Shown piece after piece: positions 53,831-58,511 of a stretch of 64,000 bases of DNA. Below the pieces are notes generated by a model. That model was not told the DNA's origin. It ran no database searches and worked only from the letters and a program-made list of their open reading frames with translations. The stretch is from Modestobacter sp. VKM Ac-2986 (GTDB lineage Bacteria; Actinomycetota; Actinomycetes; Mycobacteriales; Geodermatophilaceae). Position numbers and translations under genes: made by a program. The DNA is taken from contig NZ_JAPVBH010000007.1 in the NCBI RefSeq assembly GCF_026967795.1, positions 124,001 to 188,000 of the forward strand, in the 5' to 3' direction. Within the stretch, counting starts at the first letter, position 1, and the number at the start of each line of letters is the position of its first letter.

Positions 53831-54523
53831 TCAGGCCCAGGGGGCCAGGGTGGGCAGCGGGCCGTCGGCCTGCAGCCCGGCGCCGTCGCTGCGGCCGGTG
53901 ATCCAGGCCGCCACCTCCGGCAGGGTGCCCGCCACGGCCAGTGCGCCGGTCCCCCACTCGCGGTCGCCGGCGAACAGCGCCACGTCCGGGACGGCGTCGC
54001 GGGCGTCCCACTGCCGGAACACGTCGTCGACGACCGCGGCCAGCACGTCGTCCGGGACGTCGGCGAAACCGATCCCGGCGTCGAGGTCGACCGTGTGCAC
54101 CCACACCTCGCGGGCCCGCAGCCACGACAGCTCCGCGGCCGGCAGCACGTGCCCCTGGCGGGTCCGCACCTGCGCGGCCCACGCGTGCTCGGGCAGGTCC
54201 CGGACGGCCCCGGCCAGCCGCTGGGTGGCCGCCAGGACGGCGGCGCGCAGCTCGAGCGGCGACAACGCGGCGGTCTCCGCGATGTGCGCGTCACGGGCCT
54301 CGTCGGAGGAGTAGGCCGGCGTCTCGACCCCGGTACGGGCCCAGGTCAGCAGGTTGACCATGGCGTCGGCGTTGCCGGCCAGGTGGGCGAGCACGTGCGC
54401 GCGGGTCCAGCCGGACAGCAGCGACGGGCCGGTCAGCTCCTCGTCGGTGAGCCGGCCCAGCGCCGTGCCCAGGTGCTCCTCCCCCTGCCGCCACCAGTCC
54501 AGGTACTCGGTCGGCGCGGTCAT
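53831..54523 (-). CDS. Maleylpyruvate isomerase family mycothiol-dependent enzyme (DinB-like)
   Basis: A 230-residue protein. The mycothiol-dependent maleylpyruvate isomerase N-terminal domain has LSGWTRAHVLAHLAGNADAMVNLLTWA, with the metal His in HVLAHL. ELSWLRAREVWVHTVDLDAGIGFADVP follows, with the other His and Asp ligands, then a C-terminal SCP2-like part. It uses mycothiol as cofactor; the actual reaction is unknown here since no gentisate genes are near. The start is the ATG giving MTAPTEYLDWW. Confidence 0.88.
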   Translation of the reverse strand: MTAPTEYLDWWRQGEEHLGTALGRLTDEELTGPSLLSGWTRAHVLAHLAGNADAMVNLLTWARTGVETPAYSSDEARDAHIAETAALSPLELRAAVLAATQRLAGAVRDLPEHAWAAQVRTRQGHVLPAAELSWLRAREVWVHTVDLDAGIGFADVPDDVLAAVVDDVFRQWDARDAVPDVALFAGDREWGTGALAVAGTLPEVAAWITGRSDGAGLQADGPLPTLAPWA

Positions 54524-54698: not shown

Positions 54699-56363
54699 GT
54701 GCCCGCTCGCCCTGTCCTGCTCACCGTCGACGACGACCGCACGGTCAGCCGCGCCGTCGCCCGCGACCTGCGCCGCCACTACGGCGACCGCTACCGCGTG
54801 GTGCGCGCCGAGAGCGGCGCCGACGCCCTGGCGGCGTTGCGCGAGCTCACCGCCCGCGGCGAGCTCACCGCGCTGCTGCTGGCCGACCACCGGATGCCCG
54901 GCATGACCGGCGTGGAGTTCCTCGAGCAGGCGATGGACCTGGTGCCCGGCGCGAAGCGGGTGCTGCTCACCGCCTACGCCGACACCGACGCCGCCATCAG
55001 GGCGATCAACGACGTCGACCTCGACCACTACCTGCTCAAGCCCTGGGACCCGCCGGAGGAGCTGCTCTACCCGGTCCTCGACGAGCTGCTGGAGGACTGG
55101 TCGCGCACCACCCCCGCGCCCTTCGAGGGGCTGACCCTGCTCGGGCACCAGTGGTCGCCGGAGACCCAGGAGCTCAAGGAGTTCCTGGCCCGCAACCAGG
55201 TGCCCTACCGGCACCTGCAGGGCGAGGACGCCGCGGCGATCCGCACCGCCGCCGGCCTGGACGACGACGCCGCCCTGCCGGCCACCGTGCTCTCCGACGG
55301 CACGGTGCTCAGCCGCCCGTCGCTGCGCGAGGTGGCGACCCGGTGCGGGCTGGCCACCACCGCCGGCAGCCCGTTCTACGACGTGGTGGTCGTCGGCGCC
55401 GGCCCCGCCGGGCTCGGGTCGGCGGTGTACGCGGCCAGCGAGGGCTTGCGCACGCTGCTGGTCGAGCGCACCGCCACCGGCGGGCAGGCCGGGCAGTCCA
55501 GCCGGATCGAGAACTACCTCGGCTTCCCCCACGGCGTCTCCGGCGCCGAGCTCGCGCAGCGGGCCCGGGACCAGGCGGTGCGCTTCGGCGTCGAGGTGCT
55601 CACCGCCAGCGAGGTCACCGCGATCACCCCCAACGGCGACGGCCGGGCGCTGAGCTTCGCCGACGGCAGCCAGGTCACCGCACACGCCGTCGTCCTGGCC
55701 ACCGGGGTGAGCTGGACCAGGCTGCCTGCCCGGGGTGCCGAGGACTTCGCCGGCCGCGGCGTCTACTACGGCGCCGCCGCGCACGAGGCGGCCGACTGCC
55801 AGGGCGAGGAGGTGTACGTCGTCGGCGCGGCCAACTCCGCCGGGCAGGCCGCGCTGCACTTCGCCAAGTTCGCCAGCCGGGTGGTGCTGCTGTGCCGCGG
55901 CACCGACATCCGGGCCAGCATGTCCGAGTACCTGGTCGCCCGGATCCTGGCCAACTCCGCCATCGAGGTGCTCACCTGCACGCAGGTGGTCGCCGTCGAG
56001 GGCAGCGACCACGTCGAGCAGCTGGTGCTGGCGAACTCCGCGAACGGACAGACCACCACCGTCCCGGCGTCCCGGCTGTTCGTCTTCATCGGCGCGCAGC
56101 CGCCGACGGCCTGGCTGGGCGAGGCCTTCGCCCGGGACGAGCGCGGGTTCCTGCGCACCGGGCCGTCGCTGCTGGACGCCGAGGGCCGCCCGCCGCAGGG
56201 CTGGCCGCTGACCCGCGCGCCCTACCACCTGGAGTGCTCGGTGCCCGGGGTGTTCGTCGCCGGCGACGTCCGCGCCGAGTCGGTCAAGCGCGTCGCCTCC
56301 GCCGTCGGCGAGGGCGCCATGGCCGTCACGCTCGTGCACCGCTACCTGGAGGCCATCGGATGA
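54699..56363 (+). CDS. Response-regulator receiver fused to FAD-dependent oxidoreductase (thioredoxin-reductase-like)
   Basis: A 554-residue fusion. Residues 1-125 are a receiver domain (TVDDDR, phospho-acceptor Asp in LLADHRMPGM near 62, Lys in LLKPWD near 113). Residues ~130-220 look like a glutaredoxin/thioredoxin fold without redox cysteines. Residues ~228-550 are a TrxB-like flavoprotein: VVVVGAGPAGLGSA, VVGAANSAGQAA and GVFVAGDVR. The CxxC of true thioredoxin reductase is missing (GVYYGAAAHEA). It is coupled by ATGA overlap to a histidine kinase gene, so phosphorylation may control electron flow. Confidence 0.9.
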   Translation: MPARPVLLTVDDDRTVSRAVARDLRRHYGDRYRVVRAESGADALAALRELTARGELTALLLADHRMPGMTGVEFLEQAMDLVPGAKRVLLTAYADTDAAIRAINDVDLDHYLLKPWDPPEELLYPVLDELLEDWSRTTPAPFEGLTLLGHQWSPETQELKEFLARNQVPYRHLQGEDAAAIRTAAGLDDDAALPATVLSDGTVLSRPSLREVATRCGLATTAGSPFYDVVVVGAGPAGLGSAVYAASEGLRTLLVERTATGGQAGQSSRIENYLGFPHGVSGAELAQRARDQAVRFGVEVLTASEVTAITPNGDGRALSFADGSQVTAHAVVLATGVSWTRLPARGAEDFAGRGVYYGAAAHEAADCQGEEVYVVGAANSAGQAALHFAKFASRVVLLCRGTDIRASMSEYLVARILANSAIEVLTCTQVVAVEGSDHVEQLVLANSANGQTTTVPASRLFVFIGAQPPTAWLGEAFARDERGFLRTGPSLLDAEGRPPQGWPLTRAPYHLECSVPGVFVAGDVRAESVKRVASAVGEGAMAVTLVHRYLEAIG

Positions 56364-57805
56364 CCACGTCCACCCCGCAGATCAGCACCGCCGAGCTGCG
56401 CACGCTGTTCCTGTTCGAGTCCCTGGGCGAGGCGGAGCTGGCGTGGACCGCCGAGCGCGCCGACATCCGGGTGTTCGACGCCGACGTCGTCGTCTTCTCC
56501 GAGGGACAGCCGGCCGAGTCGCTGTACGTGCTGCTGGAGGGCGGCCTGCTGCTCACCAAGCACGCCGACGGCGAGGACGTCGTCATCAACGACACGACCC
56601 ACCGCGGGTCGTACTCCGGCGCGACCCGGGCCTACGCCACCGGCGCCCCGGAGGAGTACCCGACGACGATGCGCACGACGCGGCCCAGCCGGTTCCTCCG
56701 GCTCGCCGCCGACGACTTCACCACCCTGGTGCGGGAGCAGTGCCCGATGGCCGTGCACCTGCTCGACGGGCTGTACGAGGGCGTGCGGGCGACGGAGTCC
56801 GCGCTGCGCCAGCGGGAGCACCTGGTGCAGCTCGGGCACCTGTCGGCGAACCTGGCGCACGAGCTGAACAACCCCGCGGCCGCGGCGGTGCGGGCCACCG
56901 AGCAGCTGCGCGGGCGCACCAGCGCCATGCGGCACAAGCTCGCGCTGCTGGCCGACAGCGGGCTGTCCCCGGAGCTGGTGTCCCGGCTGGTCCGCACCCA
57001 GGACGCCGCGGTGGAGCGCTCGCTCAAGCCCCGCCCGGAGTTGACCGCGCTGGAGGAGAGCGACCTGGAGGACGCGATCGCCGAGCGGCTGGCCGAGGTC
57101 GGCGTCGACGAGTCCCAGGCCTACGACCTCGCGCCGGTGTTCGCCGCGGCCGGGATGGACGCGCACTGGGTCGACGACGTCGTCGAGCAGGTCGACTCGG
57201 GGCTGGAGTGGTCGGCGGCGTTCGGCTGGCTGCGCTACACGCTGGAGACCGAGACGCTGATGAGCGAGATCGAGGAGGCCGCGACCCGGATCTCCTCGCT
57301 GGTCGGCGCGGTGAAGCAGTACTCGCACCTGGACCAGGCCCAGCACCAGGACCTCGACGTCAAGCCCGGCCTGGAGAGCACGCTGGTGATGCTGGCCCGC
57401 AAGCTGACCGGCATCCGGGTGCAGCGCGAGTACACCGCCGCCCTGCCCGCGGTCCCCGGCTACCCGGCCGAGCTGAACCAGGTCTGGACGAACCTCATCG
57501 ACAACGCCGCCGACGCCATGACCCGCGACGGCGTCGCCCGGGGCGTGCTGACCCTGCGCACCCGGGCCGACGCCGACGCGGTCTTCGTCGAGATCGCCGA
57601 CGACGGACCGGGCGTGCCCGAGGAGGTGCGCAGCCGGCTGTTCGACCCGTTCGTGACCACCAAGCCCGCCGGCGAGGGCAGCGGCCTGGGCCTGGAGAAC
57701 GCCCGGCGGATCGTCGAGCGGCGACACGGCGGGTCGCTCAGCTACACGACCGGCCCGGAGGGGACGACGTTCTGCGTGCGGCTGCCGCTGCACCGGTCGC
57801 GGTGA
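56360..57805 (+). CDS. Histidine kinase with N-terminal cyclic-nucleotide-binding domain
   Basis: A 481-residue cytosolic kinase. Residues ~15-140 form a CRP-like cNMP domain (VVFSEGQPAESLYVLLEGGLLLTK). An H-box HLSANLAHELNNPAAAAVRA follows, with His near 166. Then comes a long helical insert, a second segment EEAATRISSLVGAVKQYSHLD, and the ATPase with N-box NLIDNAADAM, DDGPGV, FDPFVTTK and GSGLGL. No membrane helix is present. It is the likely partner of the receiver-flavoprotein encoded just upstream. A UBP-type zinc finger gene starts two bases after its stop. Confidence 0.92.
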   Translation: MTTSTPQISTAELRTLFLFESLGEAELAWTAERADIRVFDADVVVFSEGQPAESLYVLLEGGLLLTKHADGEDVVINDTTHRGSYSGATRAYATGAPEEYPTTMRTTRPSRFLRLAADDFTTLVREQCPMAVHLLDGLYEGVRATESALRQREHLVQLGHLSANLAHELNNPAAAAVRATEQLRGRTSAMRHKLALLADSGLSPELVSRLVRTQDAAVERSLKPRPELTALEESDLEDAIAERLAEVGVDESQAYDLAPVFAAAGMDAHWVDDVVEQVDSGLEWSAAFGWLRYTLETETLMSEIEEAATRISSLVGAVKQYSHLDQAQHQDLDVKPGLESTLVMLARKLTGIRVQREYTAALPAVPGYPAELNQVWTNLIDNAADAMTRDGVARGVLTLRTRADADAVFVEIADDGPGVPEEVRSRLFDPFVTTKPAGEGSGLGLENARRIVERRHGGSLSYTTGPEGTTFCVRLPLHRSR

Positions 57806-57806
57806 C

Positions 57807-58097
57807 GTGACCGGCTGGCAGGTGGAGCGGGGCGCGGTCTGCGGTCACGCCGACGGGCTGCCGCCCGCGCCCGGGCCGGCGGAGGCCTGCGAGGACTGCC
57901 TGCGCACCGGTGGGCAGTGGGTGCACCTGCGCCGCTGCCTGACCTGCGACCACGTCGGGTGCTGCGACTCCTCGCCGCACCGGCACGCGACCGCGCACGC
58001 CACCGCGACGCAGCACCCGGTGATGGCGTCGGCCGAGCCGGGCGAGCACTGGGCCTGGTGCCACCCCGACCGCGCACTGCTCCTGCCCCGCACCTGA
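57807..58097 (+). CDS. UBP-type zinc finger protein
   Basis: A 96-residue protein consisting of a ZnF-UBP fold. CGH at the start, ACEDCLRTGGQWVHLRRCLTCDHVGCCDSSPHRHATAHATATQHPV, then GEHWAWCHPDRALLL give the full Cys/His array. In eukaryotes this finger binds the free C-terminus of ubiquitin. In bacteria its ligand is unknown and could be the free Gly-Gly-like C-terminus of another protein. The GTG start lies two bases after the kinase stop, so it belongs to the signalling cassette. Confidence 0.92.
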   Translation: MTGWQVERGAVCGHADGLPPAPGPAEACEDCLRTGGQWVHLRRCLTCDHVGCCDSSPHRHATAHATATQHPVMASAEPGEHWAWCHPDRALLLPRT

Positions 58098-58142: not shown

Positions 58143-58511
58143 ATGACGCAGCCCTTCGTGGACTCCCTCGGCGTGCACGGGACGACGGCCGAGGACGGCA
58201 CCGCGCGGCTGCACCTGGACGCGACGGAGGAACACCTCAACGCCGCCGGCACCCTGCACGGCGGCGTGCTGGCCACCCTGGTCGACACCGCGATGGCCGC
58301 GGCCGTGCGCAGCAGCACCGGCGAGGACGACGTCCCGGCGACCAGCCAGCTCACCGTCACCTACCTGCACGCAGGCGCGCCCGGCCACCTGGCGGTGACC
58401 GGGCGCGTGGTGACCCAGGGTGAGCACCTCACGGTCTGCGAGGCCGACGTCGAGCAGGACGGCCGCACCCTCGTGCACGCGGTGGCGACCTTCGCCGTCC
58501 TCCACCGCTGA
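58143..58511 (+). CDS. PaaI-type hotdog thioesterase
   Basis: A 122-residue single hotdog-fold acyl-CoA thioesterase. LNAAGTLHGGVLATLVDTAMAAAV carries the HGG active-site motif and the catalytic Asp. TSQLTVTYLHAGAPGHLAVTGRVV is the second half of the fold. It acts on short aromatic or acyl-CoAs in the cytosol. The ATG giving MTQPFVDSLG is used; an ATG-less upstream extension is not convincing. It follows the zinc finger by 45 bases, so it may be co-transcribed with the cassette, though function need not be related. Confidence 0.88.
   Translation: MTQPFVDSLGVHGTTAEDGTARLHLDATEEHLNAAGTLHGGVLATLVDTAMAAAVRSSTGEDDVPATSQLTVTYLHAGAPGHLAVTGRVVTQGEHLTVCEADVEQDGRTLVHAVATFAVLHR

Follow-up and report, generated by a model that had tools for sequence, protein, structure and literature searches.

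Response regulators that join a receiver domain to a thioredoxin reductase-type output, the TrxB class, have already been catalogued (PMC5847659; P2CS, PMC2716373; PMC9739842), and the TrxB-class descriptions that we compared include a 'Mycobacterium-like' receiver plus thioredoxin reductase. The Streptomyces coelicolor listing pairs one such regulator, SCO7298, with the kinase SCO7297 (PMC9739842), receiver–thioredoxin reductase fusions are also listed for thermophilic cyanobacteria (PMC9953108), families of cyclic nucleotide monophosphate (cNMP) domain proteins have been named 'Bact_Pyrredox' and HisK (PMC2246266), and SCO7298 (trxB3) is induced by polysulfide (PMC9952706) and by acid shock (PMC2631018). 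Here we describe a three-gene cassette (genes A, B and C; 54699..58097, plus strand) in a 64,000-nucleotide stretch of Modestobacter sp. VKM Ac-2986 (contig NZ_JAPVBH010000007.1, positions 124,001 to 188,000; hereafter the window), in which a receiver-flavoprotein fusion is followed by a cNMP-type histidine kinase and a stand-alone UBP-type zinc finger. The original prediction, made from the DNA letters, placed such a cassette here, and open frames for all three genes were recovered.

The cassette shares with SCO7298 and SCO7297 a receiver with a thioredoxin reductase-type output and a kinase partner. It differs from the TrxB class, compared by description, in that the accessible accounts of that class mention no degenerate middle domain, no loss of the CxxC motif and no UBP finger. 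Receiver-TrxB proteins are known; the anatomy of this cassette, with its degenerate middle domain, absent CxxC and finger, is a new variation on them. Among the papers listed by our literature searches, none deals with the cassette, the finger association or the dithiol loss. The prediction that this redox-signalling logic has not been functionally described was nearly right, the only data found being those on expression of SCO7298, which belongs to the TrxB class by listing.

Genes A and B as a signalling pair

Gene A (54699..56363, plus strand) starts with GTG and encodes 554 amino acids comprising a receiver domain (54699..55073; Pfam Response_reg, residues 8-120), a degenerate redoxin-like domain and a thioredoxin reductase-like flavoprotein module. 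We aligned 80 members of the enzyme family, of which 67 (the window included) are receiver-type, 10 carry a fused cNMP domain and 3 have no input domain; enzymes shorter than 450 residues (L040 and L186, broken or split) and the overlapping loci L206-L216 were excluded. Across the receiver-type rows, the predicted phospho-acceptor D63 (54885-54887, plus strand) is conserved in 66/67, T91 in 66/67 and K114 in 67/67, and with this intact receiver fused to a Pyr_redox module A is a response regulator of the TrxB, enzymatic-output class. Gene B (56360..57805, plus strand, 481 amino acids) overlaps A by ATGA, and, as for TrxB-class regulators, the kinase gene in the window lies beside that of the enzyme. 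B combines a cNMP-binding-type domain (56396..56773; Pfam cNMP_binding, residues 37-126) with a HATPase_c catalytic domain (57464..57793; Pfam, residues 369-478), the HisKA match being below the Pfam cut-off. Its predicted phospho-acceptor, His167 in the H-box AHELNNP (56858..56860), was positioned from the equally long relative L112, and together with HATPase_c this histidine identifies B as a histidine kinase. The H-box pattern was found in 47 of 51 related kinase rows and missed in L177, L178, L180 and one L187 kinase; in L177, L180 and the L187 case, HQL replaces the HEL of the others. Where the second helix could be placed, most rows have about 130 residues between it and the H-box, a longer spacing than in common kinases. 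Judged by these residues, the receiver of A and the kinase B look active. A kinase-receiver pair with an enzyme-type output had been predicted and is supported; Pfam reported no DNA-binding family in A, B or C.

A query made of the receiver and middle domain found A in 40 of 296 Actinomycetota genomes. All genome-wide counts given here refer to this phylum, which is the window's own, and records from other phyla come from the best 80 of at least 590 confirmed finger stretches and from plasmid records with an incomplete gene table. Forty A loci (L166-L205) were fetched from 36 of the 40 genomes, four of which gave two loci. The next same-strand gene after A carries a cNMP domain in 37 of these 40 loci (in L182 and L200 the contig ends before the kinase part), and 18 of the 37 have a 4-base A-B overlap. 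The three exceptions are L186, where the A frame is broken, L197, where the kinase lies upstream with no cNMP domain scored, and L205, which has none. This rate of pairing rejects a chance neighbourhood and, as far as sequence can tell, A and B are a real, conserved signalling pair with an unusual enzyme output.

The same order, A then a cNMP-type kinase, appears in two Acidobacteria records, L081 and L087, as well as in L065, which is filed as Betaproteobacteria. L065 lies very close to L081 in the enzyme tree (this tree, like those of fingers and kinases below, is a quick search) and may be mis-binned; the Pseudomonadota example rests on Caballeronia. A gene annotated 'ATP-binding protein' directly follows A on plasmids of Tsukamurella, Deinococcus aetherius, Caballeronia, Streptomyces fungicidicus, Nostoc C052 and Gloeothece; that of Deinococcus, the one examined, matches histidine-kinase models and the other five are known by annotation. 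A-kinase pairs thus occur in Deinococcota, Cyanobacteriota, Pseudomonadota and Acidobacteriota. On the Nostoc edaphicum record, a transposase and a bestrophin gene separate A from the 'ATP-binding protein' gene. Some neighbours recur on these plasmids: glgX and an AGE-family epimerase gene precede A on three cyanobacterial plasmids (L218, L224, L225), and Deinococcus and Nostoc plasmids carry a gene for low temperature requirement protein A close to gene A (L219:11334-12563, L224:8148-9323, L218:12336-13565).

In one actinobacterial family (f19), three consecutive B-type kinases follow a single A in four loci, and two do so in one. The first, second and third tandem kinases form separate groups in the kinase tree with support of 98, 96 and 4, the third being unsupported. 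The natural reading of such arrays is that several sensors feed one receiver-enzyme. A gene with a diadenylate cyclase (DAC, PF02457) domain lies directly 3' of the tandem kinases in L175, L185, L187, L190 and L192 at a distance of -1 to 7 bases and is also present in L186, with L206-L208 overlapping three of these DAC-bearing loci. The f19 DAC motifs are DGA and RHM, the usual second DAC motif being RHR, and a DAC gene is also found near a finger in a Rubrobacter record (L094). The f19 genes hint at an input by c-di-AMP, which applies to that lineage and not to the window.

A ligand had been predicted for B, whose domain was read as a cyclic-nucleotide domain; a cyclic-nucleotide ligand is doubtful. 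The Gly-Glu-Arg trio of the CRP phosphate cassette is retained in 8 of 59 related kinase domains, a set that leaves out seven overlapping loci and was compared with a CRP reference sequence. In the window's group, represented by L031 and L112, the cassette columns read Gly-Ala-Tyr, so that Ala and Tyr replace Glu and Arg, and the window's B, read through the aligned L112, lacks both residues expected of a CRP-type cyclic-nucleotide receptor. With Gly-Ala-Tyr in place of Gly-Glu-Arg, cAMP would not be bound by the usual contacts in the window, and we rejected cAMP and cGMP as ligands acting through those contacts on account of this degenerate cassette. Binding of cAMP is plausible, from their sequences, for relatives such as L194.

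A flavoprotein without dithiols

Between the receiver and the flavoprotein module, gene A contains a domain that the original prediction had overlooked (residues ~144-222; 55128..55364, plus strand), with a degenerate glutaredoxin/mycoredoxin-like fold. The best solved match of its profile is 2LQO, the Rv3198.1 glutaredoxin (E 4.3e-7), which we take to be mycoredoxin-1; Pfam searches with single members gave weak matches (Glutaredoxin in 6 of 20, best E 0.0003). In the predicted structure of A, residues 145-215 follow the order beta-alpha-beta-alpha-beta-beta-alpha, as expected for a redoxin-like domain. This model, built from 8 sequences with a mean pLDDT of 75.7 and a pTM of 0.56, is informative on domain order, not on the placement of Cys367 against the flavin. 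Although Rv3198.1 is the closest solved relative by profile, its CGYC aligns with a Cys-free stretch of A: the catalytic position (residue 153, Ser in the window) is Ser in 76/80 family members and Cys in 0/80, and the second position (residue 156) is Cys in 2/80. The domain therefore lacks the catalytic cysteine of glutaredoxins and mycoredoxins.

The flavoprotein module proper (55365..56360, plus strand; Pfam Pyr_redox_2, residues 227-539) has a Rossmann fold for flavin adenine dinucleotide (FAD) and NAD(P)H, predicted from the sequence and the structure model. Neither CxxC position holds a Cys in any of the 80 family members, and no CxxC occurs anywhere between residues 346-376 in any of them; the former site reads YYGA...EA..C, in which the single Cys367 is semi-conserved (67/80). 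The predicted 'thioredoxin-reductase-like' character consequently stands for the fold and falls for the redox centre. An ordinary CATC-type reductase is also encoded in the window's genome (L234).

A similar architecture is that of AhpF (alkyl hydroperoxide reductase subunit F), a protein that uses a dithiol shuttle. AhpF is the first Foldseek match of the predicted structure of A and likewise consists of a redoxin-like part and a thioredoxin reductase-like module; the match spans nearly the whole length but superposes poorly (TM 0.41-0.43), and the shuttle of AhpF has no counterpart in A. A scores 153.9 bits against the NCBIfam AhpF model (TIGR03140; cut-off 502.9 bits), and the AhpF dithiol cysteines are also missing. 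Since AhpF ranks first in Foldseek and the cysteines are lost, sequence and model together suggest an architecture resembling AhpF with both dithiols erased.

The enzyme core occurs with three types of input, namely a receiver, a fused cNMP domain or none, which form nearly separate clades on the enzyme tree; the receiver-type L205 and the cNMP-type L230 fall outside their groups on long branches. Plasmids of Rhodococcus, Nocardia and Streptomyces (L221, L227, L228, L229) carry the cNMP-type enzyme in the order grpE-J-cbpM-clpB-trxA-finger-enzyme, with dnaK before grpE in three of these four chaperone-operon plasmids, those whose stretch reaches that far. This enzyme, annotated as a 'thioredoxin-disulfide reductase', shares with A the enzyme core and has a finger gene directly upstream; it differs in its fused cNMP domain, the lack of a receiver and of an annotated kinase, and its place in a chaperone operon. 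As these regions were picked by finger matches, they give no measure of how frequently enzyme and finger associate. DUF1931 lies 3' in three of the four plasmids, and two of the four are typed as mobilizable.

The zinc finger and the flanks of the cassette

Gene C (57807..58097, plus strand) has a GTG start and encodes a stand-alone UBP-type zinc finger of 96 amino acids (zf-UBP, 47 bits against a Pfam cut-off of 22.7). As B ends at 57805, the gap between them is one base, not the two originally given. A solved relative of C is 2IDA (E 1.6e-25) from R. palustris, and both belong to the zf-UBP family with the fingers of HDAC6 and USP proteins. In HDAC6, R1155 and Y1184 hold the C-terminal glycine (PMC10424181). 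Serine takes the place of R1155 in the window's finger and in 23 of 24 bacterial rows, in a register that lies beside a gap and is somewhat uncertain; the Y1184 position is Tyr in 18/24 rows and His in the window, and W1182 is matched by Trp in most of the 24. The window's finger thus differs from the HDAC6 and USP fingers in standing alone and at the R1155 and Y1184 positions, and lacks the arginine of a ubiquitin-tail-binding UBP finger. That the finger reads a protein C-terminus, as had been proposed, is not supported in that form. A ubiquitin-like diglycine tail on the cassette's own proteins was also considered and rejected, A and B having no conserved C-termini.

A zf-UBP match occurs in 68 of the 296 Actinomycetota genomes, namely in 30 of the 40 A-bearing ones and in 38 of the 256 that lack A. 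Sixteen of the 40 have a finger no more than 12 kb from A; a seventeenth genome (G045) has a frame-disrupted finger beside A (L167) that was unscored by the Pfam search. This finger, 3' of A-B at L167:9354-9576, scores in two frames and looks frame-disrupted or mis-sequenced. When all enzymes found by the middle-domain profile are counted, 22 of 93 finger matches fall within 12 kb of one. Among the 80 finger loci, which are the best 80 of at least 590 confirmed finger stretches, 11 have the enzyme in their fetched flanks (7 receiver-type, 4 cNMP-type). The three genes had been predicted to be locked together: this holds for A and B, adjacent in 37 of 40 loci, and does not for C, since 69 of the 80 finger loci have no enzyme in their fetched flanks, many of which are short, and the finger occurs separately in most genomes. 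Within the window's genus, a close A (>=82%) is present in 16 of 23 genomes, and in G014 the pair A-B has no adjacent finger (L213).

The placement of the finger varies, from 3' of B to upstream of A (L034, L087, L201) or upstream on the opposite strand (L036), and in a single case (L194) it is fused to the C-terminus of B in a protein of 555 amino acids. Seven of nine scored B-C junctions are ATGA overlaps, a lower bound on the junctions since genes were called by a composition script that missed the finger beside B in L168. When the label 'beside the enzyme' is mapped onto the finger tree, it requires 16 changes; the receiver-type label alone requires 11, and branches with good support impose 3 of these, the 86 columns resolving little. 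C is a recurrent but optional partner of A-B. When 56 of 62 genes lying close to fingers on the same strand were tallied by Pfam family, no partner dominated, the commonest family being DUF5996 (5/56), and clustering the six-frame frames around fingers by single linkage lumped unrelated ones together. All four long finger proteins that we tested proved to be sodium/proton antiporters ending in a finger (L131:5329-7194, L075:6372-8246, L067:6192-8243, L076:6762-8258), two of them with TrkA_N; the window's genome has one such antiporter, with a small finger gene just upstream (L131:4960-5295).

Just 3' of the cassette lies a 4HBT thioesterase gene (58143..58511, plus strand), and a similar-sized gene also follows C in the relative L112. 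The thioesterase gene is outside the conserved unit and may share a transcript with the cassette, around which promoter and terminator scans found nothing. The divergent upstream neighbour (53831-54520, minus strand) encodes a mycothiol maleylpyruvate isomerase N-terminal domain, and on the Tsukamurella plasmid an S-(hydroxymethyl)mycothiol dehydrogenase gene (L217:9556-10641) follows a complete A-B-C cassette. These neighbours make a link to mycothiol possible; the enzyme of A is also found in phyla that are not known to make mycothiol.

A possible mechanism and its alternatives

We favour, somewhat above an even chance, a reading in which the cassette is a two-component system that gates an NAD(P)H/FAD enzyme, with the finger as an adaptor. 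Kinase B would sense an intracellular state through its cNMP-type domain, the ligand in the window probably being no ordinary cyclic nucleotide, then autophosphorylate at His167 and hand the phosphate to Asp63 of A. From the phosphorylated receiver the signal would travel by way of the redoxin-like domain, which has no thiols, to the FAD/NAD(P)H module, whose turnover would change. Because both dithiol centres are lost, this module would most likely take electrons from NAD(P)H and deliver them via FAD straight to a small molecule or a partner protein. The finger would most likely serve as an adaptor, contacting the enzyme or the kinase and positioning the complex on a target; the fusion in L194, the ATGA junctions and the co-occurrence with A (30/40 against 38/256) count for such a partner role.

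Several observations weigh against this proposal. On the enzyme side, the missing dithiols raise the question of whether A turns over at all. On the finger side, the alignments of A and B show no conserved C-terminal tail for it to grip, the Fisher test of the co-occurrence (p 3e-14) is uncorrected for phylogeny, 24 of the 40 A-bearing genomes have no scored finger within 12 kb of A (some contigs being short) and 10 of those 24 have none at all, annotated plasmid regions picked by an A-like enzyme have a finger nearby in 4 of 11 cases, a twelfth region being unannotated, and three congeners that lack A (G016, G018, G019) retain the finger at the corresponding site. The last finding and the 24 genomes would suit a finger that rides along in stress loci as a passenger, mechanistically unconnected with A and B, as would the fact that UBP fingers also stand alone or end antiporters. 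We consider such a passenger unlikely, as fingers adjoin all three enzyme variants (receiver-type, cNMP-type and input-less) in several phyla, one is fused to B, and the 16 label changes on the finger tree suggest repeated association.

The direction of signalling could also be reversed, A being a sensor rather than an output, with the flavoprotein reading the redox state of NAD(P)H or flavin and tuning the kinase/phosphatase balance of a B whose target lies elsewhere. The loss of the dithiol centres from a retained FAD/NAD(P)H fold is what one would expect of a sensing pseudo-reductase, and several kinases per A would also suit a shared regulator. We give this possibility little weight, for the receiver of A retains its phosphorylation residues, and the enzyme core also exists as a cNMP-domain fusion or by itself, no annotated kinase adjoining it in the regions read, which fits an effector better.

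A further possibility, which we regard as rather improbable, is that the core is a stress effector made of the UBP finger and the dithiol-free flavoprotein, the finger directing a flavin-driven, non-dithiol electron-transfer or repair activity to damaged proteins, with inputs that range from one to three cNMP-type kinases to a fused cNMP domain or none. Targeting of damaged proteins is suggested by the position of the finger between clpB-trxA and the flavoenzyme in the chaperone operons; were it true, bacteria would have a counterpart to the UBP fingers that act on protein aggregates. It is most improbable that A is a thioredoxin or mycoredoxin reductase of the ordinary kind, controlled by phosphorylation: the fold, the names in use ('thioredoxin-disulfide reductase', TrxB class, trxB3) and a thioredoxin gene beside a cNMP-type relative point that way, but the loss of CxxC rules out an ordinary thioredoxin reductase, the redoxin-like catalytic Cys is missing from 80/80 as well, and A scores 215.6 bits on the NCBIfam TRX_reduct model (TIGR01292) against a cut-off of 343.45 bits.

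Relatives of A are annotated as thioredoxin reductases, the listed S. coelicolor regulator being trxB3, yet none of the 80 family members has the motif that defines such enzymes. If the two-component mechanism that we favour is true, phosphorylation would directly set how fast an NAD(P)H flavoenzyme works, and the partner of this enzyme would be a eukaryote-like zinc finger.

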